This document shows positions 11,854 to 38,125 of a stretch of DNA of 54,464 nucleotides, in pieces (the stretch's first letter is position 1; each line of letters begins with the position of its first letter). The position numbers were made by a program, and so were the translations under genes. Source of the stretch: Kamptonema formosum PCC 10802 (lineage in GTDB: Bacteria; Cyanobacteriota; Cyanobacteriia; Cyanobacteriales; Oscillatoriaceae); assembly GCF_000332335.1 (NCBI RefSeq), contig NZ_KB235949.1, positions 52,909-107,372 on the forward strand, read 5' to 3'. The notes below the pieces were generated by a model. It did not search any database and was not told where the DNA came from. It saw only the letters and a list, made by a program, of their open reading frames with translations.

Positions 11854-13236
11854 ATGGCGATCATTGGAACCCCTGAAAGCGACACCCTTTTTGGGACTGA
11901 ATTCGATGACTCAATCGTGGGTGATGCGGGAAACGACTCTCTTTTCGGTCTGTTCGGCAACGACACCCTGGATGGCGGCGCTGATAGCGACACCCTGGAT
12001 GGGGGTGCCGGTGCGGACTCCCTGTATGGGGGTGCCGGTGCGGACTTCCTGGATGGCGGCGACGGGAACGACACCCAGTATGGCGGAGCAGGTGCGGACA
12101 CCCTGTACGGTGAAGAGGGTGACGACTACCAGTATGGCGAAGAGGGTGACGACTACCTGGATGGCGGATTAGGTGACGACTACCTCAATGCCGGTGCCGG
12201 CAACGACATCCTGTATGGCGGCGGCGGTACGAACTACCTGGATGGCGGCGCGGGAGACGACAACCTCTATGGCGGCAGTGGCACAGACATCCTGTATGGC
12301 CAAGACGGGGACGACAACCTCTATGGCGGGGATGGTGCGGACAACCTGTCTGGCGGTGCCGGTACAGACTTCCTAAATGGGGAAGCCGGCGACGACAACC
12401 TGTATGGCGGCGCTGGGATGGACATCATCGATGGCGGCGACGGCAACGACTTCATAGAAGGCAATGACGGGAACGACTTCTTGCATGGCGGAGGCGGTAC
12501 GGACTTCCTAGAAGGCGGTGCCGGTAGCGACTACCTGAATGGAGACGCCGGTAACGACTTCCTCGATGGCGGCGACGGCAACGACTTCCTCGATGGCAGC
12601 GATGGGAATAACGTCCTCGATGGCGGCAGCGGGAACGACTATTTGTCTGCCGGTGCCGGTAGCGACTCCATGCATGGCGGCGACGGTACAGACACCCTAG
12701 ACGGTCGCGACGGCAGCGACTACATGTATGGCGGCGCTGGCAATGATATAGTCTCAGGGGGTGCCGGTACGGATTTGCTATTAGGCGGCGATAATAATGA
12801 CAGCCTCAATGGCGGTGCCGGTTACGACAACCTCAACGGTGGTGAGGGTGCGGACACCCTGATTGGTGCTGACCAAAACGCAGCCACTCCTGGACTCTAT
12901 GAAATTGACAGCCTGAATGGCGGATTGGGGGCAGATAAGTTCGTTCTCGGGACTGAGAGCAAAGTCTTCTATGATGACAGCAACAACTACTATTGGTCAA
13001 ATGGCACGAGTGACTACGCTCTAATTGCTGACTTCAACAAGTTTGAGGATATTATTCAACTCCGAGGAAGCTCCTATGACTATATCCTCACATCCGCACC
13101 GTTCTCTGTTGGCGGTTCCGCAGCCGACACAGGGATTTATATCAACAAACCTGGTTCCGAGTCCGATGAGCTGATTGCAATTGTGCAAGATGTTTCCAAT
13201 CTAAATCTTACCAGCTCTTCCTTCTCTTACGTCTAG
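11854..13236 (+). CDS. RTX (hemolysin-type) calcium-binding repeat protein
   Basis: 460 residues. From about residue 10 to 330 it is an almost unbroken array of the nonapeptide GGxGxDxLx (for example GGAGNDTLYG-type units), which forms Ca2+-binding beta-rolls. The last 110 residues are the non-repetitive cap often seen in cyanobacterial members (LNGGLGADKFVLG..., FNKFEDIIQLRGSS, ending LNLTSSSFSYV). There is no N-terminal signal peptide, so type I secretion via a C-terminal signal is likely. No enzyme domain is present, so a surface, adhesion or S-layer-like role is possible. The DNA is a minisatellite-like 27-bp repeat. No ABC exporter is in the window. A second RTX protein lies at 35855. 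Confidence 0.92.
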   Translation: MAIIGTPESDTLFGTEFDDSIVGDAGNDSLFGLFGNDTLDGGADSDTLDGGAGADSLYGGAGADFLDGGDGNDTQYGGAGADTLYGEEGDDYQYGEEGDDYLDGGLGDDYLNAGAGNDILYGGGGTNYLDGGAGDDNLYGGSGTDILYGQDGDDNLYGGDGADNLSGGAGTDFLNGEAGDDNLYGGAGMDIIDGGDGNDFIEGNDGNDFLHGGGGTDFLEGGAGSDYLNGDAGNDFLDGGDGNDFLDGSDGNNVLDGGSGNDYLSAGAGSDSMHGGDGTDTLDGRDGSDYMYGGAGNDIVSGGAGTDLLLGGDNNDSLNGGAGYDNLNGGEGADTLIGADQNAATPGLYEIDSLNGGLGADKFVLGTESKVFYDDSNNYYWSNGTSDYALIADFNKFEDIIQLRGSSYDYILTSAPFSVGGSAADTGIYINKPGSESDELIAIVQDVSNLNLTSSSFSYV

Positions 13237-13410: not shown

Positions 13411-15678
13411 TTATCGGAAACGCGATGCGGGTTGCTGTTGCGTTGCTGCCGGCTGTGCCACCTTCTCAGCGCTGAGAGCGATGGGCAAAATGAACACATA
13501 TTCCGAGAGCTTTTGATTGGGCGGATGCCCCAACTCAATGGATTTGCTATCTTCTCCTTGCGCGGAAACCGGCAGGAAATAAACGGCATCTTCCTCCCCA
13601 AATGCCTGTTTGAGCATGGCGACAAGACGCACAGCTATCGTCTCTGACAGGGACTTCTTGAGCGGCGCGAGCTCTGGCTCGTCTCCTAACGCATTGCCAA
13701 TTTTAGCAAGGCACGAGAGCGCTTCTTGGGAAATCAGCTGCCCAATCTGTTTTTGCAACTCCACTCCCCGACTGTTAGCAATTTGCGAACCGGCACCCCC
13801 CAGAGAATAAAGACCGGCAAAAGATTCGCTGCGGTGCTGCCGGGATGAAACTAAAATCTGCCGCTGCTGGAGAGATTTGTAAAACTCTGTTAAGAAGAAC
13901 ATCTCCGGCTCCTCTGAATTAGCAAACAAATCCGACTTAGGAATCACGCAAATAAACTTGGTTCCTTGCAAGGTGTCCGCTCCTTTTTGCAGTTTTAAAT
14001 CCCGCACCAGTTTTTGCAGCAGCTGCAGCTGGCTGACTCCCGCTACTTGTTTCCGGGAATCGTTGACCCGCTTGTAGTTGTCTTCCAATACTTTCCAAAC
14101 GTTGCTATCATCGCCTTTTGTCAGCTTTTCCCGGACACAGGGCTCCACAGACAGGTCAAAGAAGAAAATAATGGTTTCTGCCTTTTTAAGAGTCCGGAGA
14201 ACTGCGGGGTTAGAGCCATACTCTGTTAAGCTGCTCGCGGCAACTTCGCCGGGAATATCGGTGAAAACAAAGTTGGTTGGGCGGTAGGGTTCGGCTGGGA
14301 ACTCAATGGACAGTTTGATACTTGTGCGGGCACCGTGCTGGGTTGGTTTGGGCATTTGGCCGGCCCAGTATTTCTCGCTTAATTCCTTCATGCGAGCTTC
14401 GTCATCTGGGGAATCAAAGCTCACTGTCGCTCCTAAGGCGGAGACATTGTTATAAAAGGCGGTAAAGCCGGTGAGCAAAACGGAAGATTTGCCAGTGCCA
14501 GGACTTCCTAATAGGATGACGGAGTGAGTTTTTTCGGGTTTGGGATACCAGCCACACTTGAGTGAGGTATGTTCGGCACCGGCTGTGTCGCCGGGTTTGT
14601 CGCCAATTGGGCCGGTGCAGGTAAAGTGGACAAACTTGGTAATTTGGTCGCCAAGGATCTCGATAATTTTATCCACTGCGTCAGGGGAGCCGTTTCCGAT
14701 TTGCAAGCCGGCACCAAAAACGCTACCATTGGGTTGGGGGTTGGCGTTGCCCTGCCGCACAGCTTCGACAAATTTAGCATCCCAGCCCAGATTGGGATTG
14801 CCCAAAACTACTTCCGAAGAGAGCAGTTTTTGCAGCAATTTGGGGGAGACGAGGGTTAAGCGGGGAAGGGTGAAGGGTACGTTGGTCTGGATGCTTAAGT
14901 CTGCCACTGTGTTGATGTGCGCTGCACTTTTATGCCCGAGGACGATGGCCAGAATAAACTGAACCCTTAAAACTCCTTCTTCTAAATTGGGGTCAGGGGT
15001 TTGGTTCAGGTGCCGGTCTAGCTGGAGCAGCTGCATCAAGTACCCCTGAATGTTGGGGCAAACTTCTTGAAGCAGGTCGTATAAGGCATGGCGCGATGCG
15101 CTGCACTTTTTCATCCACTGCGAGACGTATTTTTGTTCGAGAATTAAATCGACTAAGGGGCCAGAAATCGACCGGGGCTCAAGACCGGCAACCAGGATCT
15201 CTTTGGTGCGGTTGTAGAGTTTCTGGATTGAGGCTTTGCTGTCGTCGGAAAGGGGTTGGTCAAGCCGTTCTGAGAATTCAGTTCGCCGCATGAAAGAGTA
15301 GAAGTTTTGCGCCCACTCGAAATAGTCGATGTTGTTGCGAATGAATTGCTCAACTGCTTCGGCTCCCAGTGTGCCGGTGTAGACACCCCCCTCTCGCATG
15401 GCAGCATGGTCTGTTTGGTCTTTCTTGTAGGGTGAGTTGGCTTTAATTGAGGTAAAACCGGCAATGTTGACCTGTTCGAGGACATCTTCAATGCCTTCTA
15501 GGAAGCTGCGATAGTTGGTGATAGAGCCATCTAGCTCCAGTCGGGCATTTTCTGTGAGGATGGTGCTGTAAGTTCCCTGTTTGCGGATGCCGAGAATTGA
15601 GCCGCAGGCGGGACAGGTGATGCCACTGTGTCCGGGTTTGACTGTTTCCAGAAAGTCTTTAACGGTGTTGGATGTCAT
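13411..15678 (-). CDS. Large P-loop GTPase-like protein with N-terminal Cys pair
   Basis: 755 residues. The N-terminus has one zinc-ribbon-like pair (CPAC, residues 22-25). A helical region of about 350 residues follows, then a P-loop domain with Walker A GSPGTGKSS (391-399) and a TDIPGE motif (about 473-477) in the place of the DxxG/Walker B of TRAFAC GTPases. IPKSDLF lies further on, where NKxD would be expected. The C-terminal part is helical. No transmembrane segment. It resembles the large uncharacterised GTPases found in bacterial conflict and signalling loci, but I cannot name a family with certainty. It is divergent from the YbjN/sigma-like/DUF1822 genes, so co-regulation from the 400-bp space is possible. 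Confidence 0.75.
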   Translation of the reverse strand: MTSNTVKDFLETVKPGHSGITCPACGSILGIRKQGTYSTILTENARLELDGSITNYRSFLEGIEDVLEQVNIAGFTSIKANSPYKKDQTDHAAMREGGVYTGTLGAEAVEQFIRNNIDYFEWAQNFYSFMRRTEFSERLDQPLSDDSKASIQKLYNRTKEILVAGLEPRSISGPLVDLILEQKYVSQWMKKCSASRHALYDLLQEVCPNIQGYLMQLLQLDRHLNQTPDPNLEEGVLRVQFILAIVLGHKSAAHINTVADLSIQTNVPFTLPRLTLVSPKLLQKLLSSEVVLGNPNLGWDAKFVEAVRQGNANPQPNGSVFGAGLQIGNGSPDAVDKIIEILGDQITKFVHFTCTGPIGDKPGDTAGAEHTSLKCGWYPKPEKTHSVILLGSPGTGKSSVLLTGFTAFYNNVSALGATVSFDSPDDEARMKELSEKYWAGQMPKPTQHGARTSIKLSIEFPAEPYRPTNFVFTDIPGEVAASSLTEYGSNPAVLRTLKKAETIIFFFDLSVEPCVREKLTKGDDSNVWKVLEDNYKRVNDSRKQVAGVSQLQLLQKLVRDLKLQKGADTLQGTKFICVIPKSDLFANSEEPEMFFLTEFYKSLQQRQILVSSRQHRSESFAGLYSLGGAGSQIANSRGVELQKQIGQLISQEALSCLAKIGNALGDEPELAPLKKSLSETIAVRLVAMLKQAFGEEDAVYFLPVSAQGEDSKSIELGHPPNQKLSEYVFILPIALSAEKVAQPAATQQQPASRFR

Positions 15679-15767: not shown

Positions 15768-15960
15768 TCGGGACAGGCGGGACGCCTGTCCTACGTCGGG
15801 AGAGGGGGAACGTGGGGACCGGCGGGGACAGGGGGGAGGTGGGGACAGCGGGGACAGGCGGGACGCGGGGACAGGGGGGGGACAGGGGGGGACAGGCGGG
15901 ACGTAGGGACCGGCGGGGACAGGGGGGACAGGCGGGACGCCTGTCCTACGCCTGGGGGAG
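15768..15960. repeat. G-rich GGGGACAGG low-complexity tract
   Basis: A run of GGGGACAGGCGGGACG-like units on one strand, flanked by GACAGGCGGGACGCCTGTCC palindromes. It fills about half of the space between the divergent GTPase-like gene and the YbjN-like gene. The strand asymmetry could allow G-quadruplexes (inference). The palindromic part resembles the core of the degenerate element at 32119. Confidence 0.7.
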
Positions 15961-16084: not shown

Positions 16085-16633
16085 ATGGCCACGACCCTAG
16101 CGCAGATCGCTCGCTATCTCGACGAGCGAAACTGGACATACGAGGTAGATTCGGAACATGACCGCATCATCACCGGCGTGAGAGCGGAAAACGTGGAGCG
16201 GTTTTTGCTTGCGATCGCCTTAAAGGAAGATGGAGAGTATTTCTCGCTCGGTGCGCCACAGCTGCTCAATGTCAGAGAGCATATCTATAAAGGTGTGCTG
16301 TTTCAAACTCTGCTGGCCCTTTCTTGGCAGGTTAAGATGGTGCGCTGGGAGTACAATCCGATGGATGGGGAAATCCGCGCCGCAATTGAGTTACCCTTAG
16401 AAGATAATACCCTGACTCAAAGGCAGTTTGAGCGGTGCTTGGACGGTCTGATTTATCTGGTAGATTCGGTGGCGATGCCGAGACTTCTGGCGGTGCTGGA
16501 AACCGGCACTGATCCCGGTGAGGCGGAATTGGGCGAACGGCTGTTGCTGGCGCTGCAAGAAATGTGGCCGTCTGGAGCGCTCACCCATTTGGAAAAAGCG
16601 CTCGCCGCTCGCAAGCAAAGAGGTGTGAGATAA
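16085..16633 (+). CDS. YbjN-like (type III secretion chaperone fold) protein
   Basis: 182 residues from ATG 16085, preceded by AGAGGTGATT as ribosome binding site; a GTG two codons earlier is less likely. The sequence (IARYLDERNWTYEVDSEHDRIITGV, then VERFLLAIALKEDGEYFSLG, then a helix and VRWEYNPMDGEIRAAIELPLEDNTLT) has the alpha-beta layout of YbjN-type proteins. These are thought to assist or regulate protein partners rather than act as enzymes. Cytoplasmic. It is the first of a co-directional run: the stop codon TAA shares its last A with an ATG at 16633, and the likely start of the next gene is 16708. Confidence 0.75.
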   Translation: MATTLAQIARYLDERNWTYEVDSEHDRIITGVRAENVERFLLAIALKEDGEYFSLGAPQLLNVREHIYKGVLFQTLLALSWQVKMVRWEYNPMDGEIRAAIELPLEDNTLTQRQFERCLDGLIYLVDSVAMPRLLAVLETGTDPGEAELGERLLLALQEMWPSGALTHLEKALAARKQRGVR

Positions 16634-16707
16634 TGCCGGTGATGAGTTGCTGTTTACCCCAGTCTGGGAAAATGGGATGCGAGCGTAAAACAAGTGTGAG
16701 GTGCACC

Positions 16708-18093
16708 ATGTGCGAGCGTCAGACTCTCATTGACAAGTTTTCCACTTTTGCTATAGTGGGAGAGCGCACCGGCTCTCTTGCTATCAGCCGGTGGGTTTAT
16801 GAGCCGGCATTGAAGCGCAGTATGCAGAGGATGGTTGAGCTAGATCCAGGGGCGAACGAAAATTTTTGGGCGCTGCACTGGCTGAAAGAGGCTGTGCCAG
16901 TTGCCCTCTATCCGCCGGCGAAAGGGCACTTGTCCGCTTACCTGGAAACCGCCTGCTATTGGACAGCTGTCAAAATTTGCCTGCAGTTTTCTGATAGGGG
17001 TCACACTCCCACAGATTGCTTTCAAATTGCCAGAGATTTTGCCGGCAATCCCGCGAAACTCTTTGCTAACTATGACTCTCGCCTCAGTAGCGTCCAGACT
17101 TATGCGCAAATGAGACTCAGGAGTTATCTGCTAGACGAGTTGCGCCGGGGGAGAGAGGCGGAGAAATATTCTGACTGGGCGCTGCTGCGCTCGCTGAGGA
17201 AAACTTCTCTGGAAGAGGCTTTAGAAAACTGCGGCTATACAGAGTCGCAGGTTGCTCTTTACCGGCTGGCTTGGCGCTGCTTCACAGACATTTACACACC
17301 GGCTTCTTCAGAAGGGAGCCGGAAGCTGCAGCCACCCAGCGCCGTCAAGTGGGAGGAGATTGCCGGTCGCTACAACCAGTTGCGCGGTCAGTTAAAATTG
17401 GAAGCAGAGGTTAGTGTAGAAGAGCTGCAAAATTTGCTGAATACTGTTGTTGATGCGGCTCGCCGGCAATCCCAAAATTCCCCCGCGTCAGCCGGCAGCC
17501 TTGAGGTAGCTCTGACCCCCTCAATGCCGGTTCCCCAGCCGTTGATATATAATGATATCAGCGAAGACGACAGCCCGGAATTTGAAAGGGAGCGAGTCAA
17601 TTCTATTTTATCTCAAAGCTTCCAATTGCTGCCAAAAGAGATTCGTAAAATGTTTGAACTCTGGCTGGGGCTGGGCTTTACCCAGAAGGAAGTGGCTGGC
17701 TTGTTCGGCTGGGAGCAGGAGAAGTTTTCCAGGCAAATGAAAAAGCAGGGCAAGGTTCTCTTGACTCAGCTGTTAAAAGAGCTGGGGAAATATGAGGGAA
17801 AGTCAAAGCTTGGCAAGAAGTCAAAAGAGATTGACAAGAAAGGCCAACTGATGAAGCTGTGGCTGGAAGAGCATTGCAAAGCGCCTTATGCCGCTTTCTT
17901 AGCTTCCTCTCTCACAAAGATGAAAATTTCGGAAGCCGGCGCAAAGGCACGTCTTGCAGAGGTGCGCAGCAGCTTGCGGGATGAATTGAAACTCTATGTG
18001 GAATCCCGCTTGCAGATTTCTCTGTCGCAACTCCCGCAGGCGGATAACCGGCTGGGGGCTTTTGTGAGAGACTGGAGCAATTTTTTGGAGTAA
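16708..18093 (+). CDS. Atypical sigma-70-like factor of cyanobacterial type
   Basis: 461 residues from ATG 16708, which follows GTGAGGTG at good spacing. In-frame ATGs at 16633 and 16672 are alternatives, but MCERQTLIDKFSTF matches the N-terminus I know for this family. The middle (AYLETACYWTAVKIC, then LRSYLLDELRRG, then SDWALLRSLRKTSLEEAL) resembles sigma regions 2 and 3. FQLLPKEIRKMFELWLGLGF, followed by TQKEVAGLFGWEQEKFSRQM, is a region-4-like helix-turn-helix. Core polymerase contacts look degenerate, so it may bind DNA or other proteins rather than act as a normal sigma factor. It is followed 26 bp later by the DUF1822 gene. Confidence 0.78.
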   Translation: MCERQTLIDKFSTFAIVGERTGSLAISRWVYEPALKRSMQRMVELDPGANENFWALHWLKEAVPVALYPPAKGHLSAYLETACYWTAVKICLQFSDRGHTPTDCFQIARDFAGNPAKLFANYDSRLSSVQTYAQMRLRSYLLDELRRGREAEKYSDWALLRSLRKTSLEEALENCGYTESQVALYRLAWRCFTDIYTPASSEGSRKLQPPSAVKWEEIAGRYNQLRGQLKLEAEVSVEELQNLLNTVVDAARRQSQNSPASAGSLEVALTPSMPVPQPLIYNDISEDDSPEFERERVNSILSQSFQLLPKEIRKMFELWLGLGFTQKEVAGLFGWEQEKFSRQMKKQGKVLLTQLLKELGKYEGKSKLGKKSKEIDKKGQLMKLWLEEHCKAPYAAFLASSLTKMKISEAGAKARLAEVRSSLRDELKLYVESRLQISLSQLPQADNRLGAFVRDWSNFLE

Positions 18094-18119
18094 TTTGGAG
18101 TAAATTCGGAGGAATTTCA

Positions 18120-19559
18120 ATGTTTACAGTGCCTGAACTTATGGTAGAATTCCCAGAGCAGCTGTGGCTGGAGTTCGACCGCAGGGAGCGGTCAGCGGCA
18201 TGGCCAAATGATGGGGAATACTCTTATAATGCGGCTCGCTGGAATGCTTTTCTGAACCGTTTGTGTCTGACTCTTGTGATTCAGTGGCTGGAAGAAGAGA
18301 GTGGATTGGCTGCTAAAGTGTGGCCAAGTGAGGCGGATTTGCCGGGGATTTGGGAAGTGGTAAATGGTACGGCTGTTGCGCTTGATAAAACGCGGTTTAT
18401 ACTGATTCCGAGTGAAGCGCTGGATATTGCAGAGTTCTGCGTTCCGCAGGAGTGGGTGGATATTCCGAGTTGGGCCGGTGACTATTATTTGGCGGTGCAA
18501 GTTAACCCGGATGGGGGCTGGTTGCGGGTGTGGGGGTACGCTACCCACGAGATGCTGAAAAGTAAGGGGATATATGATGAGTTGGAGCGGTGTTATTATT
18601 TGCGGCGGGAGGATGCAATTGAAAATCTGAATGTGATGTGGGTGGCGGTGGAAGTCGGTGCGGATGAAAGGGTGCCGGTGAAGTCTTTGCCGGTTTTGCA
18701 TACAATGTCGGCAGAAAATCTGCTGGCGCAATTGAGCCGGCATTCTCCTTATTCGCCTCGCCTGGATGTGGGGTTTGAGCAGTGGGGGGCGCTGCTGGAT
18801 AATGGGAGTTGGAGACAGCAGCTGTATAAGCGGCGGATGCTAGCTATTGCGGGAGCTGTTGCAGCAGCTGTTGCAGCAGCTGTTGCACCGGCACCTGCTA
18901 GCACATTAGTCAACTTAAGCCAGTGGTTTGAGAATGTCGTTGAGGCCGGCTGGCAGACCATTGAAGAACTTTTTGGAGTACCTGAAGTCAATTTAGCCCG
19001 GGGGTTTCGCAGTCGAGGCAGTGAATCAGGCGGTACTGAAGCCATCGCTAATAAAATTCGCCTGATTGATACCACTTCTGATGAAGGGCTGCTTAAAATT
19101 GCGGCGCAGAGATTGGGGGAAATTGGAAAGGGTTCCCCCCAAGCTGTTGAGGCTTTAATTTACCTGCTGGGCAAAACTACTGATGAGGAAACCCGCTGGG
19201 CGGCGGCTGAAAGCTTGTGGAAAATAGATCCAGGCAATCCAGCATCGGGTGTCCGAAGGGTAAAGGATTTGGGGATGCAGATAGCCGGTCATGCCGTAGC
19301 ACTGATGGTAGCGGCTTTGCCCAAAGCTGAAGGAAAACTTGCCATTCTCGTGCGGGTGTATCCTCTGGGGGGCAAGACTTCTCTGCCGCCGGGGTTGGGG
19401 CTGACGGTACTCGATGAACAAGGTGATATTTTTCTAGAAGTGCAAGCCCGGGATGCTGATGAGTGGATTCAGCTCAAGTTGGGCGGAACGCGGGGAGAGT
19501 GGTTCAGTGTTAAAGTAGGGTTAGAGGGGGTGAGTGTTTCGGAAAGTTTTGTTATCTGA
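18120..19559 (+). CDS. DUF1822 family protein
   Basis: 479 residues, start preceded by GGAGGAATTTCA. The first 220 residues have the DUF1822 pattern: PEQLWLEFDRRER, W..YLNRLCL-type helix, IPSEALDIAEFCVPQEWVDIPSWAGDYYLAVQV, WLRVWGYATHE. An Ala/Val linker follows (residues 241-256), then a HEAT-like block (IAAQRLGEIGKGSPQAVEAL, then IYLLGKTTDEETRWAAAESL) and a beta-rich C-terminal domain (LAILVRVYPLGGKTSLPPGL). Function unknown. In cyanobacteria DUF1822 genes commonly lie beside sigma-like, CHASE2/CHAT and DUF928 genes, as here. Probably cytoplasmic; no signal peptide. Confidence 0.85.
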   Translation: MFTVPELMVEFPEQLWLEFDRRERSAAWPNDGEYSYNAARWNAFLNRLCLTLVIQWLEEESGLAAKVWPSEADLPGIWEVVNGTAVALDKTRFILIPSEALDIAEFCVPQEWVDIPSWAGDYYLAVQVNPDGGWLRVWGYATHEMLKSKGIYDELERCYYLRREDAIENLNVMWVAVEVGADERVPVKSLPVLHTMSAENLLAQLSRHSPYSPRLDVGFEQWGALLDNGSWRQQLYKRRMLAIAGAVAAAVAAAVAPAPASTLVNLSQWFENVVEAGWQTIEELFGVPEVNLARGFRSRGSESGGTEAIANKIRLIDTTSDEGLLKIAAQRLGEIGKGSPQAVEALIYLLGKTTDEETRWAAAESLWKIDPGNPASGVRRVKDLGMQIAGHAVALMVAALPKAEGKLAILVRVYPLGGKTSLPPGLGLTVLDEQGDIFLEVQARDADEWIQLKLGGTRGEWFSVKVGLEGVSVSESFVI

Positions 19560-19570
19560 AAGCGCTGGGG

Positions 19571-19600
19571 AAACCCGGTTGACAGGAGAAACTGGGTTTC
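19571..19600. repeat. Diverged AAACCCGGTT palindrome
   Basis: AAACCCGGTTGACAGGAGAAACTGGGTTTC, a weaker member of the palindromic family. It lies directly after the DUF1822 stop and before the promoter of the next gene. Confidence 0.55.
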
Positions 19601-19626
19601 CGAAACTTGAGGGTTGACATTGAGGG

Positions 19627-19655
19627 TTGACAAAGGGCGAGCGTTCCGGTATAAA
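19627..19655 (+). promoter_or_regulatory. Near-consensus sigma-70 promoter for the CHAT-CHASE2/DUF928 pair
   Basis: TTGACA (19627-19632), exactly 17 bp, then TATAAA (19650-19655). The ATG follows 24 bp later with an AGGAGGG ribosome binding site, leaving a short leader. A second TTGACA lies 16 bp upstream. It suggests that the CHAT-CHASE2 and DUF928 genes can be transcribed apart from the upstream sigma-like/DUF1822 pair. Confidence 0.65.
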
Positions 19656-19679
19656 GAAATAGGACGCTAGAGGAGGGCA

Positions 19680-21971
19680 ATGGCTAGGAAATTAGTTTTT
19701 TTAAAGTTGGTGGGGGGAGATTTTCAGCAAGGATTTCCGGTGATTCTCCAGATTGGGGAAGAGGGGAGCGGACCCGACACCGAAATCAACGGCAAGTTGC
19801 CCCCTGCCCCCACAATACCCGCGATTTATGACGATTGGCAGTCCAAGTACCGGCGATTGAGTTTGCGGGTCAGACTGGATAAACCAGTCGCGCAAGTAAC
19901 GCAGATTTCTCCTGTCCAGGATTGTCGCGATGCTGCCGAGAGGCTGAAGAAGGTTTTGTGCGATTGGCTGAATTCCGAACCCTTTCGCTCGATTCGAGAG
20001 ACTTTGCTGGAAAAATTGCAGCCCTCTGATGAAGTGAGAGTAATCATTCAAGCTGAGGAGGGATTGCAGCGACTTCCCTGGGATTTGTGGGACTTTTTTG
20101 AGCGCTATCCCAAGGCGGAAATTTCTTTGAGCGCCCAAAAATATGAGCGCCAAGAAAAAGCGGCACCGGCGGGAGCGAAAGTTCGCATTCTGGCGATTTT
20201 AGGGGACAGCACCGACATTAATATCGAAGCAGACCGGGCGCTGCTGGAGCAATTGCCCAACACTGAACCTGTTTTTCTGCCAGAACCGGCACTAACGGAG
20301 ATAAATGACAAACTTTGGGAGCAGTCGTGGGAGATATTGTTTTTTGCGGGGCACAGCCGCACTGAAGACAAAAAGGGGCGTCTTTATATTAATCAGGAGG
20401 ACAGTCTAACGATTGACGAGTTAAAGAATGGGTTTAGAAAAGCGATTGCGCGGGGTTTGCAGGTGGCGATTTTCAACTCTTGCGATGGGTTGGGGTTGGC
20501 GCAGCAGCTGGCAGATTTGCAAATTCCGCAAGTTATTGTGATGCGAGAGCCGGTGCCGGATAAAGTGGCGCAGGAGTTTTTGAAGTATTTTTTGGAAGAG
20601 TTTGCCGGTGGCACGTCTTTATATATGGCGGTGCGCTCGGCGCGGGAAAGGTTGCACGGGTTAGAGCGTGAGTTTCCCTGTGCTAGCTGGATGCCGGTGA
20701 TTTGCCAGAATCCGGCAGAAGTGCCTCCGACTTGGGAGGAGTTGCGATATGGGAAGAGTGGGAAGAGCGGTGAGCGCGGAAGCCGGTATAATTGGGTCAA
20801 ACTTGGGGCGGCGTTTCTGGCAAGTTTGGCAGCCACTAGCTTGGTGCTGGGGGTGCGACAGTTAGGGGGGCTAGAAACACTGGAACTTAAGGCATTTGAC
20901 CAACTCATGCAAGTGCGCCCCGACGAAGGAGCTGACCCGCGACTGCTGGTGGTTGAAGCTACTTCTGATGATATCAAAAAATATGGCTTTCCGCTACCCG
21001 ATGGCATTCTGGCGCGGGTGATAGAAAAGATAGGTTCGCATCAGCCGCCGGTTATTGGTTTGGATATCTATCGCGACGTGCCGGTGGGAACTGGCAATGC
21101 TGAGTTAGTCAAACAGCTGCAAAATGACCGGCTTATTGTCATCTGTCAAGTTCCTCAAGAGAATGACCCCGGCATCCCACCGCCTCCTGCAGTGACTGAT
21201 GAAGACCGGCACGGCTTTAGCGATATTGTACCAGACTCGGACAAGGTTATCCGCCGGCACTTGTTGTTTTTCGATCCAAAGTTTAATTCTCCCTGTCGCG
21301 CTGACCATTCGTTTAGTTTGCGGCTGGCACTTGATTACTTAGATGAAAAAGAGGGCATCGCCCCTGCCCTCACTCAATATCTAACGTTAAGGAAGACTGT
21401 CTTCAAACCTTTGCAAATCAATCCAGACAAGCCTGCCGGTGCCGGTGGCTACCGCCATACGGATTTGCGGGGCTATCAAATTTTGCTGAATTACCGCACC
21501 TTCAAAGACGTGGCGCGGCGAGTTAGCATCGCGGATGTTTTGAATGGCCAATTTGACCCGAATTGGGTAAGGGATAGAATTGTCCTGATTGGCGTTACTG
21601 ACCCAACTAAACCTGACAATCACCCGACGCCGTACCAGACAATGCCCGGAGTGCTGATTCAGGCGCAGATGGTGAGTCAAATTCTCAGTGCGGTTCTGGA
21701 CAAGCGCCCCCTGTTGGGAGTTTGGCCGGCATGGGGCGAAACTATCTGGATCTGGGGGTGGTCATTTGCGGGCGGTGCGCTGGTTTGGGGGTGGCGCAAG
21801 CCGTTACATCGAGGGGTGGCAATTGCCGGCGCTCTTGTCATTTTGTCTGGAATCTGCTATATTCTTTTGATACAGGGCAGTTGGGTGCCGCTTGTTCCCT
21901 CAGCGCTGGCCTTGGGAATGACTGGAGGGATTGTGGTAGTTTATAGTGCATCGATAAAAAAGGGGTTATGA
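19680..21971 (+). CDS. Membrane CHAT protease fused to CHASE2 sensor domain
   Basis: 763 residues. Residues 1-350 form an N-terminal CHAT (caspase-like) domain: ILFFAGHS with catalytic His225 and VAIFNSCDGLG with Cys268, and ASWMPVICQNP closing the domain. Transmembrane segment 1 is at about 372-392. Residues 400-670 are a CHASE2 domain (LELKAFDQLMQVRP, LLVVEATSDDIKKYGFPLPDG, VIGLDIYRD, then VLIGVTDPTKPDNHPTPY). Three transmembrane helices follow at about 680-760. The CHASE2 part should lie outside the plasma membrane and CHAT inside, so an external signal could control a cytoplasmic protease. The catalytic dyad is intact. The stop overlaps the start of the DUF928 gene by 4 bp (ATGA). Confidence 0.92.
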   Translation: MARKLVFLKLVGGDFQQGFPVILQIGEEGSGPDTEINGKLPPAPTIPAIYDDWQSKYRRLSLRVRLDKPVAQVTQISPVQDCRDAAERLKKVLCDWLNSEPFRSIRETLLEKLQPSDEVRVIIQAEEGLQRLPWDLWDFFERYPKAEISLSAQKYERQEKAAPAGAKVRILAILGDSTDINIEADRALLEQLPNTEPVFLPEPALTEINDKLWEQSWEILFFAGHSRTEDKKGRLYINQEDSLTIDELKNGFRKAIARGLQVAIFNSCDGLGLAQQLADLQIPQVIVMREPVPDKVAQEFLKYFLEEFAGGTSLYMAVRSARERLHGLEREFPCASWMPVICQNPAEVPPTWEELRYGKSGKSGERGSRYNWVKLGAAFLASLAATSLVLGVRQLGGLETLELKAFDQLMQVRPDEGADPRLLVVEATSDDIKKYGFPLPDGILARVIEKIGSHQPPVIGLDIYRDVPVGTGNAELVKQLQNDRLIVICQVPQENDPGIPPPPAVTDEDRHGFSDIVPDSDKVIRRHLLFFDPKFNSPCRADHSFSLRLALDYLDEKEGIAPALTQYLTLRKTVFKPLQINPDKPAGAGGYRHTDLRGYQILLNYRTFKDVARRVSIADVLNGQFDPNWVRDRIVLIGVTDPTKPDNHPTPYQTMPGVLIQAQMVSQILSAVLDKRPLLGVWPAWGETIWIWGWSFAGGALVWGWRKPLHRGVAIAGALVILSGICYILLIQGSWVPLVPSALALGMTGGIVVVYSASIKKGL

Positions 21972-22729
21972 ACCGGGCCAACAAAATAACGCGGCTCACG
22001 CTCACCTTGGCGCTGATTAACTTACCCGGCACCCCCACAGGAGTGCCGGCACAGCCTGTCCCTGGAGAATTATTCAACGCCACCTCAATCGCTCAAAATA
22101 AAAGAAAGCGAGTGCGCTTTGTCAGTGCGCCGGTGAAAAACCCGACCCGCCGAACAAGTGCGGGAAGCCGGGGCGATAATAATTGCCGGGGAGCGGAAAA
22201 GCAGATTACAGCCTTAGTTACGGAGGAACTCATAGGGTTAACTGTCTCAGAGCGCCCGACTTTGTGGTTTTATATTCCCTATGCTTCCAAACCTGGATTT
22301 TCGGCAGAGTTTGTGCTGCGGGACGACCGGAAAAAAGACGTTTATCAGACTACTTTGCCGGTTCCGGGAAAGGGGATTGTGAGTGTCCCCCTCCCGGAAA
22401 CAGTGCCGCCGCTGGAGAGTGGCAAAACATACCAGTGGGTTTTCACTGTAATTTGCGATTCAGCCGACCGCATGAAAGATGATTTCGTGGAAGGGAAGGT
22501 GACGCGAGAGGCGCTTAAGCCTGAGGTTCAGAGCCAATTAGAGGCAGCCACCTCGGAACGCGACCGCGTTATCATTTATGCTGAGAATGGTTTGTGGTAC
22601 GAGGCTGTGACACTTTTGGCCGAACTCCGCCGCCGTTCCCCGGAGGATAAAACTTTTGCCGAGGACTGGGCGGATTTGTTGGGGGATGTTGGGTTGGCAG
22701 ATATGGCCACAGAGCCTTTTGTTCCGTGA
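21968..22729 (+). CDS. DUF928 family exported protein
   Basis: 253 residues. The N-terminus has Arg/Lys and a hydrophobic stretch (LTLTLALINLPG) acting as a weak signal peptide, followed by a low-complexity basic region (about 40-65). The domain shows the DUF928 features: NNCRG-type Cys, LTVSERPTLWFYIPY, AEFVLRDD, GIVSVPLPE, YQWVFTVICDSADR, then the helical end with WYEAVTLLAELRRRSPED and DWADLLG. Function unknown; likely periplasmic. Translation is coupled to the CHAT-CHASE2 gene (4-bp overlap), which argues that the two products act together, perhaps with DUF928 contacting the CHASE2 domain (inference). Confidence 0.9.
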   Translation: MNRANKITRLTLTLALINLPGTPTGVPAQPVPGELFNATSIAQNKRKRVRFVSAPVKNPTRRTSAGSRGDNNCRGAEKQITALVTEELIGLTVSERPTLWFYIPYASKPGFSAEFVLRDDRKKDVYQTTLPVPGKGIVSVPLPETVPPLESGKTYQWVFTVICDSADRMKDDFVEGKVTREALKPEVQSQLEAATSERDRVIIYAENGLWYEAVTLLAELRRRSPEDKTFAEDWADLLGDVGLADMATEPFVP

Positions 22730-25862: not shown

Positions 25863-28800
25863 CTATTTCCACTCGCCCTGCAGGATAAAAGGTGCCCAGT
25901 AATGAGGCTTTTTCCCCTCTGCTATCATCGACAGTTGCGCCTCTCGCAACGCCCGCGCCGGCGGCAGCCCATCTTTCAGCATCTTCTGGTAAAATCTGCT
26001 CATCAGCTCCGGCGTACCCTCACCATCGCTCACAGTCCACAAACTCACCATCACCCGTTTGGCACCGGCATACATGAACCCTCGGGTCAGCCCCACAACT
26101 CCTTCCCCTTTAACCTCCTTTCCCTTGCCGGTTTCACAGCCACTCAGCACCACCAATTCCGCCGGCAAATTCAAATTGAACACTGCCGGTGTGAGCAGAT
26201 ACCCGTTTTGCTCTGCGCCAAACTGGTTGACGAGAGACAAAACGATCCCCGATAGTTGCGGGTTCTGGGAGTTGAGAAAGCCGTGAGTGGCAAAATGCAC
26301 GACCCGATAGTTACTTAGCACAGAGTCCGTTGCTTTGTCAAGATTCGCGTCAAAATCAAATGCCTGCATTTTCTCAGAATCTGGCACCAGAGATAAAATT
26401 CTTTCCGCTTCCAGGCGGGTGCCAGGAAGTGGATTCCAAGTTTTCCCCTCACTGTCAGTACCTCGGGTAAGATTGGGGGTTAACAGCGGCGGTGTCTGAG
26501 GTGTGGGGGTTCCCTTCACGCGCGGATCTTCAGCGCCAAACACCGGATCTGCCAGCACAGCAACAGCTTTGGGGGCGGGTTGACGATTGGCAGTATCCCG
26601 CCTGATAATAGAGAGAGTCGAGGCAGAAGGCAAGCTGACAATTTCGTGTTCTGCTATCAGGAGTTGGGGACTTTCGCCCGCTGCAGGCTGCACCGGCACC
26701 GGCAAAGCGCTGAAAGGAATGTATTGCAGTCCGCCGTCAGCAACTATCAGCAAGCGTTTCTGCTGCAACTGCTCGGCAACCGGCGCTAAAATTATTTTGC
26801 TCAGGGTAGCGGCTTTGACATCGGCGTCGGCTGAACCGCTATACCGAGGTGCCAAGTATTTGATGAATTCTTCGGCGGCGGTTTCGATATCGGCGCGTTT
26901 GGGCAGCTCGTAAGCGGTGATGGAAGTGGGGGTGACAGCCCACAGATAGCTGCGTTCTTCACCCAGCCAGTAAGACAGCAGGATGGTGTCCGCATCCACA
27001 ATTTGTTGCTGAATTTCTTTGAGGGTGAGAGGTTCCGGTTGAGTTAAGGTAGCGTAGCGGGGACTGGTGGCGCGGATTTGATATTGGACTTGTTGATACT
27101 GCTGCTGGAGCTGTGCAATCTCTTTGCTGATGGCAGCGATTTGTTGTTCCGTAGGTTGACTACTGAACAGTTGCAATTGGTATTGCGTTTTGGCAGCCAA
27201 TTGTTGTTCCAACTGGCGTTCCTGCTCTCGCAGCGCTGGATCAACTCCTTGTCGGATATCGGCACGCGCTTCGTTTAAGAGTTCGAGAAGAGTGCGAGCG
27301 CGACCGCGTTCGCTTACTTCAAAAGCTGTTAAATTGTACCTGGCATCTGGGTGCTGCTGATTCAATTGCATCAATAGGTCAATGTAGAAGTTGTAATATT
27401 TCCACGATCCTTCCGATATCAAATCGCGTTCTTCAGGACTAGACTTGTGTTTTTGACGCTCATTTTCAAGAATTTTAACAGACGCTTTTATTTGAGCTAA
27501 AGCTTCATTTAAATGTCCCAAGCTCCGCTCCAGTTTAGCAATATCCAAAAGCGTCATTGCTTCGCCACTGCGACTTCCCGAAGCCTGCCAGGTTGCGACC
27601 GCTTGGCTAAGGTATTCTCTTGCCTTTTGCTGCTGTCCCAATTCTATATAGAATAACCCGATAGCTCTAATAGTTTCTGCTTCTCTAACTCGATCTTTCG
27701 TAGCCCGTAATAAAGGCAGGGCCTCGTTTAAAAAGTCAATCCCTTTTGGCTTTTCTCCCAAAAGATTATATATAGCCGCGATATTAACCAACATATTCCC
27801 AGCTAAATTGTCCATTCTGAGGGAGCGAAAGAGAAGCACTGCCTGCTCCCAGTTCTCAATCGTATTTTTCTTATCCCCTAATGAATGGTATATTGTTCCA
27901 ATGCCCACAAAAGTAAAGGCTTCCTGCCGTTTGTCACCAATCTCTCGATATAGCAACACAACTTGCTTATAGGAGTCGATTTGGTTCTTTTTTTCACCCA
28001 AGGTGTGGTATATTCCAGCCAGGCTACTAAGCGTAAAGGCTTCCTGCCGTTTGTCACCAATCTCTCGATAAAGCAGCACAGCTTTTTTATAGGAGTCAAT
28101 TGCGTTCTGTTGTTCACCCAAGGTGCCGTATATTCCAGCAAGGCTACTAAGCGTAAAGGCTTCCTGCCGTTTGTCACCAATCTCTCGATAAAGCAGCACA
28201 GCTTGCTTATAGGAGTCGATTGCGTTTTGTTTTTCACCCAAGGTGCCGTATATTTCAGCAATTCTCCTGCGCGTAAAGGCTTTCCAACCTTGGTTTCCTA
28301 AAGCCTGCCATAGCAGAAGTGCTTGATTGTAGGAGTTTAACGCCTGTTGTTTTTGTCCTAAGGAGGCGTACATTTCACCGATGTTGCTGAGTGTGGTAGC
28401 TTCCCAACCTTGGTTTCCTAAAGCCCGCCATAGCGGCAGCGATTGAGTGTAGTAATATAGTGCCTTTCTTCCATCTTTGAATGATTGATATAGAGAGCCA
28501 ATACTGTTCAGGGTAACTGCTTCTCCCTGACGATTATCCGAAGCTCTATAAAGCGGAAGTGCTTGGTTGTAGTAGTTTAACGCCTGTTGCTTTTCACCTA
28601 GGGAGAGATAGACACTAGCAATTCTGTCTAAAGCCACAGCTTGCCAGGGTTGGTTGCCCAAACCTGTCCAAATTTCTAGTTCCTGATGAAAATAGTTGAG
28701 CGCTTGTTGTTTTTCCCCCAAGGATTCGTAAACCAAACCCATACGATTGACGGCTGCAGCTTCCCGATCGCGAGCGCCCACATTCCGCCACAGACGCAGT

Positions 28801-29090
28801 GCCTCTTCAAACTTTGGGAGCGCTTGTCGCAAGGATTCAGGCGTTTTTCGCTCAAATAGCCGAATCCCTTCATCAAGGGCTCGTTGGGCTGCTGCCCGAG
28901 TGCTATCGGAAGGCCCAGTCTGCTGTTGAGCCAACTGGCTCTGATTATTTTCTGACACAGACTGCGAACCATCTATCGCTTTGTGGAAGCCACTTTCCCC
29001 CCCCACCGGCACACTGCGCGAACCCACCGGCACCGCCGGCCAAAACAACACCGCAGCCATCCCCAAAACAGCCACTCTTGCCCCTCTCAT
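25863..29090 (-). CDS. Exported TPR-CHAT protease
   Basis: 1075 residues from ATG 29090; an upstream start at 29168 adds a Gly/Arg-rich extension. A signal-peptide-like stretch (ARVAVLGMAAVLFWPAVPVG) heads the protein. Next come about 10 to 11 TPR units of 40 residues (consensus LGEKQQALNYYNQALPLYR), a helical region (LREQERQLEQQLAAKTQYQL), and a CHAT domain of about 330 residues: VVHFATHGFLNSQNP (catalytic His), VVLSGCETGKGK (catalytic Cys), GLTRGFMYAGAKRVMVSLW, ending HYWAPFILQGEW. The protease dyad is complete. Export would place it outside the cytoplasm. Three of the TPRs (about 27905-28270) are nearly identical in DNA. It is convergent with the AAA+ cassette. Confidence 0.93.
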   Translation of the reverse strand: MRGARVAVLGMAAVLFWPAVPVGSRSVPVGGESGFHKAIDGSQSVSENNQSQLAQQQTGPSDSTRAAAQRALDEGIRLFERKTPESLRQALPKFEEALRLWRNVGARDREAAAVNRMGLVYESLGEKQQALNYFHQELEIWTGLGNQPWQAVALDRIASVYLSLGEKQQALNYYNQALPLYRASDNRQGEAVTLNSIGSLYQSFKDGRKALYYYTQSLPLWRALGNQGWEATTLSNIGEMYASLGQKQQALNSYNQALLLWQALGNQGWKAFTRRRIAEIYGTLGEKQNAIDSYKQAVLLYREIGDKRQEAFTLSSLAGIYGTLGEQQNAIDSYKKAVLLYREIGDKRQEAFTLSSLAGIYHTLGEKKNQIDSYKQVVLLYREIGDKRQEAFTFVGIGTIYHSLGDKKNTIENWEQAVLLFRSLRMDNLAGNMLVNIAAIYNLLGEKPKGIDFLNEALPLLRATKDRVREAETIRAIGLFYIELGQQQKAREYLSQAVATWQASGSRSGEAMTLLDIAKLERSLGHLNEALAQIKASVKILENERQKHKSSPEERDLISEGSWKYYNFYIDLLMQLNQQHPDARYNLTAFEVSERGRARTLLELLNEARADIRQGVDPALREQERQLEQQLAAKTQYQLQLFSSQPTEQQIAAISKEIAQLQQQYQQVQYQIRATSPRYATLTQPEPLTLKEIQQQIVDADTILLSYWLGEERSYLWAVTPTSITAYELPKRADIETAAEEFIKYLAPRYSGSADADVKAATLSKIILAPVAEQLQQKRLLIVADGGLQYIPFSALPVPVQPAAGESPQLLIAEHEIVSLPSASTLSIIRRDTANRQPAPKAVAVLADPVFGAEDPRVKGTPTPQTPPLLTPNLTRGTDSEGKTWNPLPGTRLEAERILSLVPDSEKMQAFDFDANLDKATDSVLSNYRVVHFATHGFLNSQNPQLSGIVLSLVNQFGAEQNGYLLTPAVFNLNLPAELVVLSGCETGKGKEVKGEGVVGLTRGFMYAGAKRVMVSLWTVSDGEGTPELMSRFYQKMLKDGLPPARALREAQLSMIAEGKKPHYWAPFILQGEWK
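27905..28270. repeat. 120-bp coding tandem repeat within the TPR-CHAT gene
   Basis: The block TTCCTGCCGTTTGTCACCAA starts at 27921, 28041 and 28161, exactly 120 bp apart (40 codons). The surrounding sequence is almost unchanged, which indicates recent duplication or gene conversion of TPR units. Confidence 0.85.
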
Positions 29091-29215
29091 CCGCCTCACC
29101 CCTCCCCACACACGCCAATCCCCGTCCCAACGCCCACCCATACCGCCACCTCCGCAGAAATTTGACACAAATTATATCCCGACTCACCCCCCACCGCAAT
29201 ACTCTGCTTATCTAT

Positions 29216-35854: not shown

Positions 35855-38125
35855 ATGGCAATTTTCATCGGAGACGAATTCGACAATTACCTCGTGGGCG
35901 AGAAGTCGGACGACTCACTAGCCGGCCTGGGAGGCAATGATACCTTAGATGGGGGCGCAGGCAATGACACCCTAGACGGGGGAGCGGGCGATGACCTCTA
36001 CATTATCAGTGCCGACGGCTCAGATCCGTACTCCTACTACTCTTACTCCAACGATACAGTCACCGAGCAGCTCGACAGCGGTGCGGATACAATTGAGTCT
36101 TCCGTTAACTTTTCCTTGCCGGCTAACGTGGAGACTCTCCTCTTCACAGGAAGCGACCCGATCGGCGGTTCTGGCAACGAACTAGACAATAATCTCACCG
36201 GCAATACCGGCGACAACTGGCTTTCTGGGGGTGCCGGCAATGACACCCTATACGGGAACGCCGGCAATGACTACCTCGACGGTGGAGAAGATAATGACAG
36301 CCTGATCGGGGGCGAGGGCAATGACAGCCTCTACGGCAATGGGGGCAGTGACAGCCTCTCTGGGGGCGCAGGCGATGACTACTACTCGGTTGACACAACC
36401 CTCGACACAGTAACCGAGGATGCCGGTGCCGGCACGGACACGGTTTACTCGGAAGTCAGCTACACCCTGGGAGCCAATCTGGAGAACCTGGAGCTTGGAT
36501 GGTCGGGAGCCTATTCAGGCACCGGCAACGCCCTCGACAACACCATCCGGGGAAATAATACCGACAACATCCTGGAGGGGCTAGAGGGCAGCGACACCCT
36601 CATCGGTCGCGGCGGCAATGACAGCCTCGACGGTGGCGCTGGCGATGACTACCTCTCCAAAAATGACTTTGACTATTACTACTACTCCGTGCCGGGCAAT
36701 GTCACGCTCAACGGCGGTGCCGGCAATGACACACTCACGGGGGGTGAGGGCGATGACCTCTACATCGTCGATAGTGCCGGTGACTCCGTTGTGGAGATGG
36801 ACGATGCCGGTTCTGGCGCAACACCGGCTAGCGACATCATCCTCCCGCCCCAACCTGCCGGTGGCGGGGGGATCGATACGGTGGAATCTTCCGTCAGTTG
36901 GACCCTGGGCGACAACCTGGAACACCTCACCCTCACCGGCACGGATAACACCAGCGGCACCGGCAACTCCCTGGACAACGCCATCACCGGCAGTGCTGGC
37001 AACAACAGCCTCATGGGAGGCGCAGGCAGCGACACCTTAGACGGAGGCGCAGGCAGCGACACCTTAGACGGAGGTGCCGGCAGCGACACCCTCACAGGGG
37101 GCGCGGGCGATGACCTCTACATCATCAATCCCAACGGCGGTGGCCCATCCTACTCCTACTCCTACGACCAAATCTCCGAGCAGTACAATAGCGGTACAGA
37201 CACAGTTCAGTCTTCTACCAGCATCTGGTCCCTAGCAGCCAACGTCGAGAACCTGATCCTCGTCGGAGGTGGCCCTATCTCCGGAACCGGCAACGAACTG
37301 GATAACACTATAATCGGCAATGCCACCGACAACTATCTGAACGGGGGTGCGGGGAATGACACCATCGACGGGGGCGCAGGCAATGACAACCTCAGCGGTT
37401 CATCCGGCAATGACAGCCTGATCGGGGGCGAAGGCAATGACACCCTTGACGGGTATGGGGGGAATCACACCCTGATCGGAGGTGCCGGCGATGATGTTTA
37501 CAACCCCAGCGGCACGCTTGACCAATTGATTGAGGATGCCGGTGCCGGCACAGACACGGTATACTCGAACGGCAGCTGGACCCTGGGGGCGAATCTGGAG
37601 AATTTAGTCCTGTGGGACGGAGTGAGAGGCACCGGCAACGCGCTCAACAATTCGATTACAGGGAATGCGAACAGCAACACCCTCAGCGGTTTGGAAGGCA
37701 ATGATACCCTCGACGGTGGGGATAATGGCACTGACACCCTGACCGGCGGTGCCGGCAGCGATTCGTTCCGCCTCAAATCCTACGGTGCGGACGTGATTGC
37801 CGATTTCAGCGCTGCGGAGGCTGACAAAATTCTTCTCTCGAAGTGGGATTTCTACGCGCTCACCAGCGCTCCCGGTGCCGGTTTTAGCGTGGCGGGCGAG
37901 TTTGCCACTGTCGAAAGTGATGCCGGCGCTTCCACGAGCGGTGCGACGATTGTTTACAGCACCGGCAGCGGGAACTTGTTCTACAACACGGATGGCTCTG
38001 CAGAAGGCTTTGGTTACGGGGGTCAAATTGCGGCGCTCACCGGCTCCCCCGCCCTCACTGCTGCCGATTTCATCATTGAGGAGAGATCCGGCTCTCTTGG
38101 CGGGCCGGTAATCAGCCCCCTGTAA
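35855..38125 (+). CDS. RTX-type calcium-binding protein 2
   Basis: 756 residues, no signal peptide. It has several blocks of GGxGxDxLx nonapeptides (for example GGNDTLDGGAGNDTLDGGAG near the start). They alternate with a longer repeated module, seen four or five times, that reads like DTVTEDAGAGTDTVYSEVSY, then TLGANLENLEL and GTGNALDNTI. This alternating layout is typical of cyanobacterial serralysin-like surface or secreted proteins. The last 110 residues (DSFRLKSYGADVIADFSAAE, then KILLSKWDFYAL) form a non-repetitive cap similar to that of the RTX protein at 11854 and probably carry the type I secretion signal. No enzyme domain is seen. Strong ribosome binding site AAAGGAAAG. Confidence 0.92.
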   Translation: MAIFIGDEFDNYLVGEKSDDSLAGLGGNDTLDGGAGNDTLDGGAGDDLYIISADGSDPYSYYSYSNDTVTEQLDSGADTIESSVNFSLPANVETLLFTGSDPIGGSGNELDNNLTGNTGDNWLSGGAGNDTLYGNAGNDYLDGGEDNDSLIGGEGNDSLYGNGGSDSLSGGAGDDYYSVDTTLDTVTEDAGAGTDTVYSEVSYTLGANLENLELGWSGAYSGTGNALDNTIRGNNTDNILEGLEGSDTLIGRGGNDSLDGGAGDDYLSKNDFDYYYYSVPGNVTLNGGAGNDTLTGGEGDDLYIVDSAGDSVVEMDDAGSGATPASDIILPPQPAGGGGIDTVESSVSWTLGDNLEHLTLTGTDNTSGTGNSLDNAITGSAGNNSLMGGAGSDTLDGGAGSDTLDGGAGSDTLTGGAGDDLYIINPNGGGPSYSYSYDQISEQYNSGTDTVQSSTSIWSLAANVENLILVGGGPISGTGNELDNTIIGNATDNYLNGGAGNDTIDGGAGNDNLSGSSGNDSLIGGEGNDTLDGYGGNHTLIGGAGDDVYNPSGTLDQLIEDAGAGTDTVYSNGSWTLGANLENLVLWDGVRGTGNALNNSITGNANSNTLSGLEGNDTLDGGDNGTDTLTGGAGSDSFRLKSYGADVIADFSAAEADKILLSKWDFYALTSAPGAGFSVAGEFATVESDAGASTSGATIVYSTGSGNLFYNTDGSAEGFGYGGQIAALTGSPALTAADFIIEERSGSLGGPVISPL

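Follow-up and report, generated by a model that had tools for sequence, protein, structure and literature searches.

A CHASE2-type EACC2 signalling operon of cyanobacteria and its predicted secreted DUF928 partner

Cyanobacterial genomes carry a widespread operon of four genes, encoding a divergent sigma-70 family factor, a DUF1822 protein, a CHAT-CHASE2 protein and a DUF928 protein, whose core arrangement is a CHASE2-type variant of the published EACC2 systems (Kaur et al. 2021, eLife, PMC8195603). We analyzed this operon in a stretch of 54,464 nucleotides from Kamptonema formosum PCC 10802 (contig NZ_KB235949.1; hereafter the window), in which a first-pass annotation made from the sequence alone had proposed a five-gene transmembrane CHAT protease system. 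CHASE2 is a sensor domain whose ligands have long escaped identification, and very little has been written about DUF928 or DUF1822, both of them domains of unknown function. The DUF928 gene accompanies CHASE2 in general and not the protease, and its product is a predicted, probably secreted partner of the CHASE2 receptor. As a mechanism, it is enticing to envision two cassettes joined at the inner membrane, with the protease freeing the sigma factor by way of DUF1822, a plausible reading that we place somewhat short of probable.

Composition and conservation of the operon

The five open reading frames (ORFs) of the unit are all present, open and co-directional on the + strand, with the short spacings that the first-pass annotation had read, namely intergenic gaps of 74, 26, 120 and -4 bases, the last marking the overlap of the DUF928 ATG with the CHAT-CHASE2 stop codon (Table 1). 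A search for CHAT-CHASE2 proteins over 120 genomes of the order (E <= 1e-60) gave matches in at least 108 of them, among the matches listed. A set of 102 loci, from 60 genomes and 20 families, was made up of 100 full-length matches among those listed, the window and a sibling locus (L023). DUF1822 lies upstream of CHAT-CHASE2 at 87 of these loci, a sigma gene is present at 81 (25 of a long type, 56 of a short type), and DUF928 lies downstream at 82; all three stand beside CHAT-CHASE2 at 65 loci, representing 46 of the 60 genomes and 16 of the 20 families, so that the linkage of the four families reaches far beyond close relatives. A further 72 named loci (78 minus six repeats of earlier loci), which are the best-scoring of the scan and biased towards the window protein, carry DUF928 at 64, DUF1822 at 58, a sigma gene at 39 and all three at 32. 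The locus counts are lower bounds because many regions end at contig ends, and the detection profiles, built on the first locus set, may miss divergent members elsewhere.

The YbjN-like gene, counted in the unit by the first-pass annotation, is an occasional extra and was rejected as a core member: its relatives occur at 4 of the 102 loci, the window included, each time directly before a long-type sigma gene, and at none of the 72 named loci. The YbjN label is itself weak, because the protein scores 18.7 bits against the Pfam model, below the gathering cut-off of 22. The product of the second gene had been described as an atypical sigma-like factor. It is indeed divergent, without a Pfam match, yet it scores 48.1 bits against NCBIfam TIGR02937 (sigma70-ECF), above the curated sigma-70 cut-off of 42.9; a Pfam sigma region 4 is present in 14 of 23 relatives, and a profile built from its relatives matches FliA in the PDB (7.9e-8). 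An AlphaFold model (predicted local distance difference test, pLDDT, 84.6; predicted template modelling score, pTM, 0.48) was compared with known structures by Foldseek, and the 43 best rows are all sigma or initiation-complex entries, none of them at E <= 0.001 and with low template modelling (TM) scores. Sigma-like is therefore too weak a label: the protein belongs to the sigma-70 family as a divergent member.

In the CHAT-CHASE2 protein, His225 and Cys268, the residues of the dyad that had been called intact, are each kept in 100 of 101 aligned proteins, those outside 740-900 residues having been left out before the count. Family-mean hydropathy gives hydrophobic segments at residues 374-392, 687-705 and 713-731, and a fourth at about 740-758 was read by eye. 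The predicted topology therefore places CHAT inside and CHASE2 outside, which agrees with the transmembrane protease proposed at the outset.

The EACC2 systems, according to the part of the paper drawn on here, combine a constant alpha+beta domain and a caspase-like domain with variable partners that include CHASE2, kinase and STAND; many lack TRADD-N, and most neighbourhoods without TRADD-N contain genes for DUF1822 and an extracytoplasmic function (ECF) sigma factor (PMC8195603). The core of the window's operon was thus already described there, and the suggestion of the first-pass annotation that the joint system was new does not hold. The K. formosum genome encodes nine EACC2-CHAT proteins that share residues 4-355 of the window protein and have six kinds of partner: CHASE2 (the window and L023), nSTAND1 (L024, L028), AAA_35 (L026), pentapeptide repeats (L025, L027), a kinase (L029) and WD40 (L030). 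Eight of the nine adjoin or are fused to DUF1822. A constant domain and caspase-like domain with varied partners, sigma and DUF1822 neighbours and an intact dyad were all found, and the name EACC2 follows the way the systems are described in the paper rather than its alignment (PMC8195603). TRADD-N had no Pfam match in the five proteins, no search aimed at it having been made. A profile of the EACC2-CHAT-CHASE2 protein had no match in the PDB at 0.001, and membership of the HetF family was rejected (17 bits against a cut-off of 1200).

Table 1. Features of the operon and an associated gene, in window positions
Feature	Positions	Strand	Remarks
YbjN-like gene	16085..16633	+	182 aa; alternative GTG start 16079; optional member
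Long-type sigma-70 family factor	16708..18093	+	461 aa; mechanical ORF starts 16564
DUF1822 protein with HEAT repeats	18120..19559	+	479 aa; Pfam DUF1822 4.8e-95, HEAT_2 2.2e-6
CHAT-CHASE2 gene	19680..21971	+	Pfam CHASE2 2.6e-67, CHAT 1.9e-14
EACC2-type N-terminal domain and CHAT protease domain	19680..20744	+	residues 1-355; His225/Cys268; Pfam CHAT
CHASE2 sensor domain with flanking membrane segments	20784..21971	+	residues 369-763; Pfam CHASE2 2.6e-67, hydropathy
DUF928 protein	21968..22729	+	253 aa; Pfam DUF928 2.2e-63; probable secreted Ig-TPR-like CHASE2 partner
TPR-CHAT protein	25863..29168	-	1101 aa; convergent; Pfam CHAT 3.2e-65; associated gene, probably secreted

DUF928 as a partner of CHASE2

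As a control, 24 EACC2-CHAT loci without CHASE2 were assembled, seven from this genome and 17 from elsewhere; three of 20 extra control loci (L231, L232, L243) proved to carry CHASE2 and were dropped, and two of these have DUF928 downstream. DUF928 lies downstream at 82 of the 102 CHASE2 loci versus 0 of the 24 controls (Fisher p 4e-14, for loci that are not independent). Seven genomes, K. formosum among them, were scanned with curated Pfam models alone and yielded 76 DUF928 and 86 CHASE2 matches, counted after two split DUF928 matches of one genome (G033) and two split CHASE2 matches of K. formosum had been merged. Across these seven genomes, a CHASE2 gene is found no more than 2.5 kb from 52 of the 76 DUF928 genes, versus 0.87 expected, and DUF928 is near 41 of the 72 CHASE2 genes that fall outside the listed EACC2-CHAT type. 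DUF928 thus goes with CHASE2 in general, not with the protease; in K. formosum some loci have it upstream of CHASE2 and others have it downstream, and the effector proteins differ. Elsewhere in this genome (C3:2230805-2234003; L111, L117, L127, L128), a broken CHASE2 gene was observed beside DUF928 and near an intact CHASE2 gene. A literature search found the word DUF928 only in a report on Nostoc punctiforme, the consulted part of which describes five adjacent genes that include two WD40 genes, a CHASE2 gene and a gene for a DUF928 protein (PMC5587647).

The AlphaFold model of the DUF928 protein (pLDDT 85.6, pTM 0.77) shows a predicted beta-sandwich followed by helices. Compared by sequence, the protein has no meaningful relative in the PDB (best E 0.031). 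Compared by fold, the model matches the MtxA C-terminal domain best among PDB entries (4z29, E 4.4e-5, TM-score 0.56-0.57 by target length), with lower rows given by generic immunoglobulin (Ig), FN3 and carbohydrate-binding folds. MtxA of Magnetospirillum has Ig-like and TPR domains and is made for secretion; its gene precedes one with similarity to adenylate cyclase and CHASE2, and an mtxA mutant had no discerned phenotype, as reported in the part of the study used here (PMC4439547). MtxA and DUF928 would accordingly be alike in an Ig-like and TPR fold, in being made for secretion and in the adjoining CHASE2 receptor gene (PMC4439547), and differ in sequence, which is about 12% identical, and in receptor output. 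The modelled fold match and the gene neighbour agree across distant bacteria, and together they are the strongest new evidence for the partnership.

A hydrophobic N-terminal core was found in 135 of 168 DUF928 ORFs versus 4 of 554 control ORFs, in a scan that could extend beyond the controls' 60 residues for DUF928. From this N-terminal core and the MtxA-like fold of the model, DUF928 is probably secreted, which fits the first-pass proposal of an outside protein whose gene is translationally coupled to CHAT-CHASE2. No DUF928 was found in viral contigs. Two things look new: the general partnership of DUF928, MtxA-like in its modelled fold, with CHASE2, and the secretion neighbourhood described below. 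The literature search found no paper that brings them together. Should DUF928 prove to be the outer subunit of CHASE2 receptors, the two proteins would best be searched for ligands together, instead of CHASE2 by itself.

From the envelope to the sigma factor: a proposed route and its alternatives

The unit extends beyond the coordinates first noted, with TPR-CHAT and two-partner-secretion genes as common neighbours. TPR-CHAT family genes occur near 69 of the 102 CHAT-CHASE2 loci (50 of them convergent and downstream) versus 3 of the 24 controls, and TpsA- or ShlB-type two-partner-secretion genes near 56 of the 102 versus 0 of the 24. Among the matches listed, a genome has up to about 20 secretion-domain genes, and for a count near that figure the chance expectation per 19 kb is well under 0.1. 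At the sibling locus L023, a TPR-CHAT gene adjoins the operon and a two-partner-secretion protein is encoded about 3.5 kb further on. The window's own TPR-CHAT protein (Table 1) begins with what looks by eye like a signal peptide and is probably secreted.

Other neighbours in the window include a protein with a DO-GTPase1 domain (Pfam 6.2e-9), encoded on the opposite strand upstream of the five-gene unit (13411-15678, -), and a short G-rich repeat (gggacaggcgggacg-like) occurring in runs at 15780-15960, ahead of the YbjN-like gene. Two proteins rich in GGxGxDxLxGG-type repeats (11854-13236 and 35855-38125) resemble RTX calcium-binding proteins in that motif.

Two natural or apparent fusions link DUF1822 to its neighbours. 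L024, a locus of this genome, encodes an EACC2-CHAT-nSTAND1-DUF1822 fusion, and L197 (6559-8463) has a single ORF with a long-type sigma factor and part of DUF1822, which is either a natural fusion or the product of a local deletion. These two remain of four ORFs flagged as sigma-DUF1822 fusions. L280 was rejected as a NACHT-HEAT-sigma protein without DUF1822 by Pfam, and L287, itself not scanned, for having the same layout. The ORFs of this pair (L280 5394-7970 and L287 130-2706; 858 residues) join NACHT, HEAT repeats and a short-type sigma domain, as judged by Pfam on L280 only and, for the sigma part, by the analysis's own profile. At L031 and L032, two further loci of the K. formosum genome, long-type sigma and DUF1822 genes are paired with no EACC2-CHAT in the stretch fetched. 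The window DUF1822 protein has a hydrophobic stretch at residues 240-258; a stretch that hydrophobic occurs in 25 of 177 relatives, and DUF1822 was rejected as a membrane family.

Co-evolution of the inside and outside cassettes gave a mixed result that is suggestive only. Over 68 order-wide loci, DUF928 tracks CHASE2 (partial r 0.61 vs 0.11) and DUF1822 tracks EACC2-CHAT (0.59 vs 0.22), and a step is seen at the membrane segment; pooled over 117 loci, the values are 0.56 vs 0.12 for DUF928-CHASE2 and 0.35 vs 0.10 for DUF1822-EACC2-CHAT.

In the mechanism that we tentatively favour, an outside cassette of CHASE2 and its dedicated, secreted DUF928 would detect a change in the cell envelope. The signal would cross the membrane segment next to CHAT and activate the His225/Cys268 protease, which would cleave DUF1822; DUF1822 is proposed, by analogy, to be an anti-sigma factor or adaptor as well as the substrate, holding the sigma factor until it is cut. 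The freed sigma factor would then redirect transcription, with a plausible output at many loci in the surface proteins that adjoining two-partner-secretion and TPR-CHAT genes encode. If CHAT does free the sigma factor via DUF1822, caspase-like proteolysis in cyanobacteria would control envelope genes, beyond its roles in cell death and immunity. We regard as doubtful the more sweeping claim that DUF928 is a dedicated extracytoplasmic CHASE2 subunit across cyanobacteria while the EACC2 branch cuts a DUF1822 anti-sigma factor and so sets two-partner-secreted surface proteins.

Several observations weigh against this mechanism. DUF1822 is present at 15 and sigma at 9 of the 24 EACC2-CHAT loci without CHASE2, both being commoner with CHASE2 (p 0.02 and p 1e-4, respectively), and the split into two cassettes is therefore not clean. 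In the 49 named loci used for co-evolution DUF928 tracks CHAT more than CHASE2 (0.57 vs 0.37), and subsets by sigma type disagree. The L197 and L024 fusions are single cases among 5219 ORFs, and a PDB search with the DUF1822 profile found no related sequence at E <= 0.1, which gives no link by sequence to Csx30. The signal-peptide core of the window DUF928 is weak (1.53 against a threshold of 2.0), and the 54-kb window holds no secretion gene. Finally, a shared 30-base signal upstream of sigma operons and of secretion or TPR-CHAT genes was not found, the best ungapped 30-base match averaging 18.24 (112 pairs) versus 18.37 (345), with p 0.89, in a comparison that could miss a weak motif.

The variety of partners offers a different view of the whole family. 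The pattern is used, in the part of the EACC2 paper drawn on, to argue for conflict systems (PMC8195603), and the nine EACC2-CHAT proteins of this genome, with nSTAND1, AAA_35, WD40 and kinase among their six partner kinds, would suit a counter-invader module in which CHASE2 is one sensor of an immunity or cell-death repertoire, the protease self-activates and the sigma factor switches on defence genes. We think this rather unlikely, as most loci of the CHASE2 branch have secretion genes and an envelope partner alongside; a PADLOC search at E <= 0.01 also left all five proteins without a family, though such absence proves little.

It is also conceivable that DUF1822 is not cut at all and serves as a scaffold bringing the sigma factor to the protease, with CHAT cleaving itself or the sigma factor. 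Autopeptidase activation, with transcriptional output through the sigma factor, is what has been proposed for EACC2 systems (PMC8195603), and the fusions to the protease (L024) and to sigma (L197) would serve a scaffold too; however, in the experimentally shown CHAT-sigma precedent a third, sigma-binding protein is cut (PMC10028731, PMC9729208), and we judge a scaffold unlikely. As for the outside cassette, DUF928 and CHASE2 might merely travel together as one block of DNA without physical partnership, given that they are contiguous in most of the 102 loci, that shared inheritance could give the correlation seen at 68 loci and that the named set did not repeat it. The K. formosum loci, where DUF928 changes sides and effectors, and the MtxA fold match, which is independent of linkage, argue for partnership and make a mere block of DNA very unlikely.

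Comparison with known systems

The window's operon has in common with the published systems an N-terminal domain with a CHAT protease, a variable partner (CHASE2 being named), an ECF sigma factor and DUF1822 (PMC8195603). It differs in several respects. The systems in that paper have ECF sigma factors, and the sigma factor here is often of the long type; secretion neighbours, present at many of the loci studied here, were not met in the text examined; and the published placement of the EACC2 domain is N-terminal (PMC8195603), whereas in L025 (7125-10313) and L027 (6324-9188) EACC2-CHAT follows pentapeptide repeats and hydrophobic segments and forms the C-terminus. In the main text of the paper YbjN has 0 occurrences, and DUF1822 is the sole word starting with DUF, so that DUF928 is absent as well (PMC8195603).

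The nearest mechanistic parallel is Craspase, a type III-E CRISPR system (Csx29-Csx30-CASP-sigma). There, as described in the parts of the two reports consulted, an ECF-like sigma factor is bound and inhibited by Csx30, which the TPR-CHAT protease Csx29 cleaves (PMC10028731, PMC9729208). Craspase and the window's operon both encode a CHAT-family protease, a third protein and a sigma factor together; the trigger of Craspase is a target RNA acting through Cas7-11, whereas the operon has a membrane sensor (PMC10028731, PMC9729208). As no sequence relative of DUF1822 was found in the PDB, we read the analogy as one of layout and not of descent. The Craspase work draws a comparison with RseA (PMC10028731). 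Envelope signals also reach sigma factors by proteolysis in the RseA/RseP and FecR-type systems. The proteases of those systems are DegS and site-2 proteases, whereas in the cyanobacterial operon the receptor would carry its own protease.

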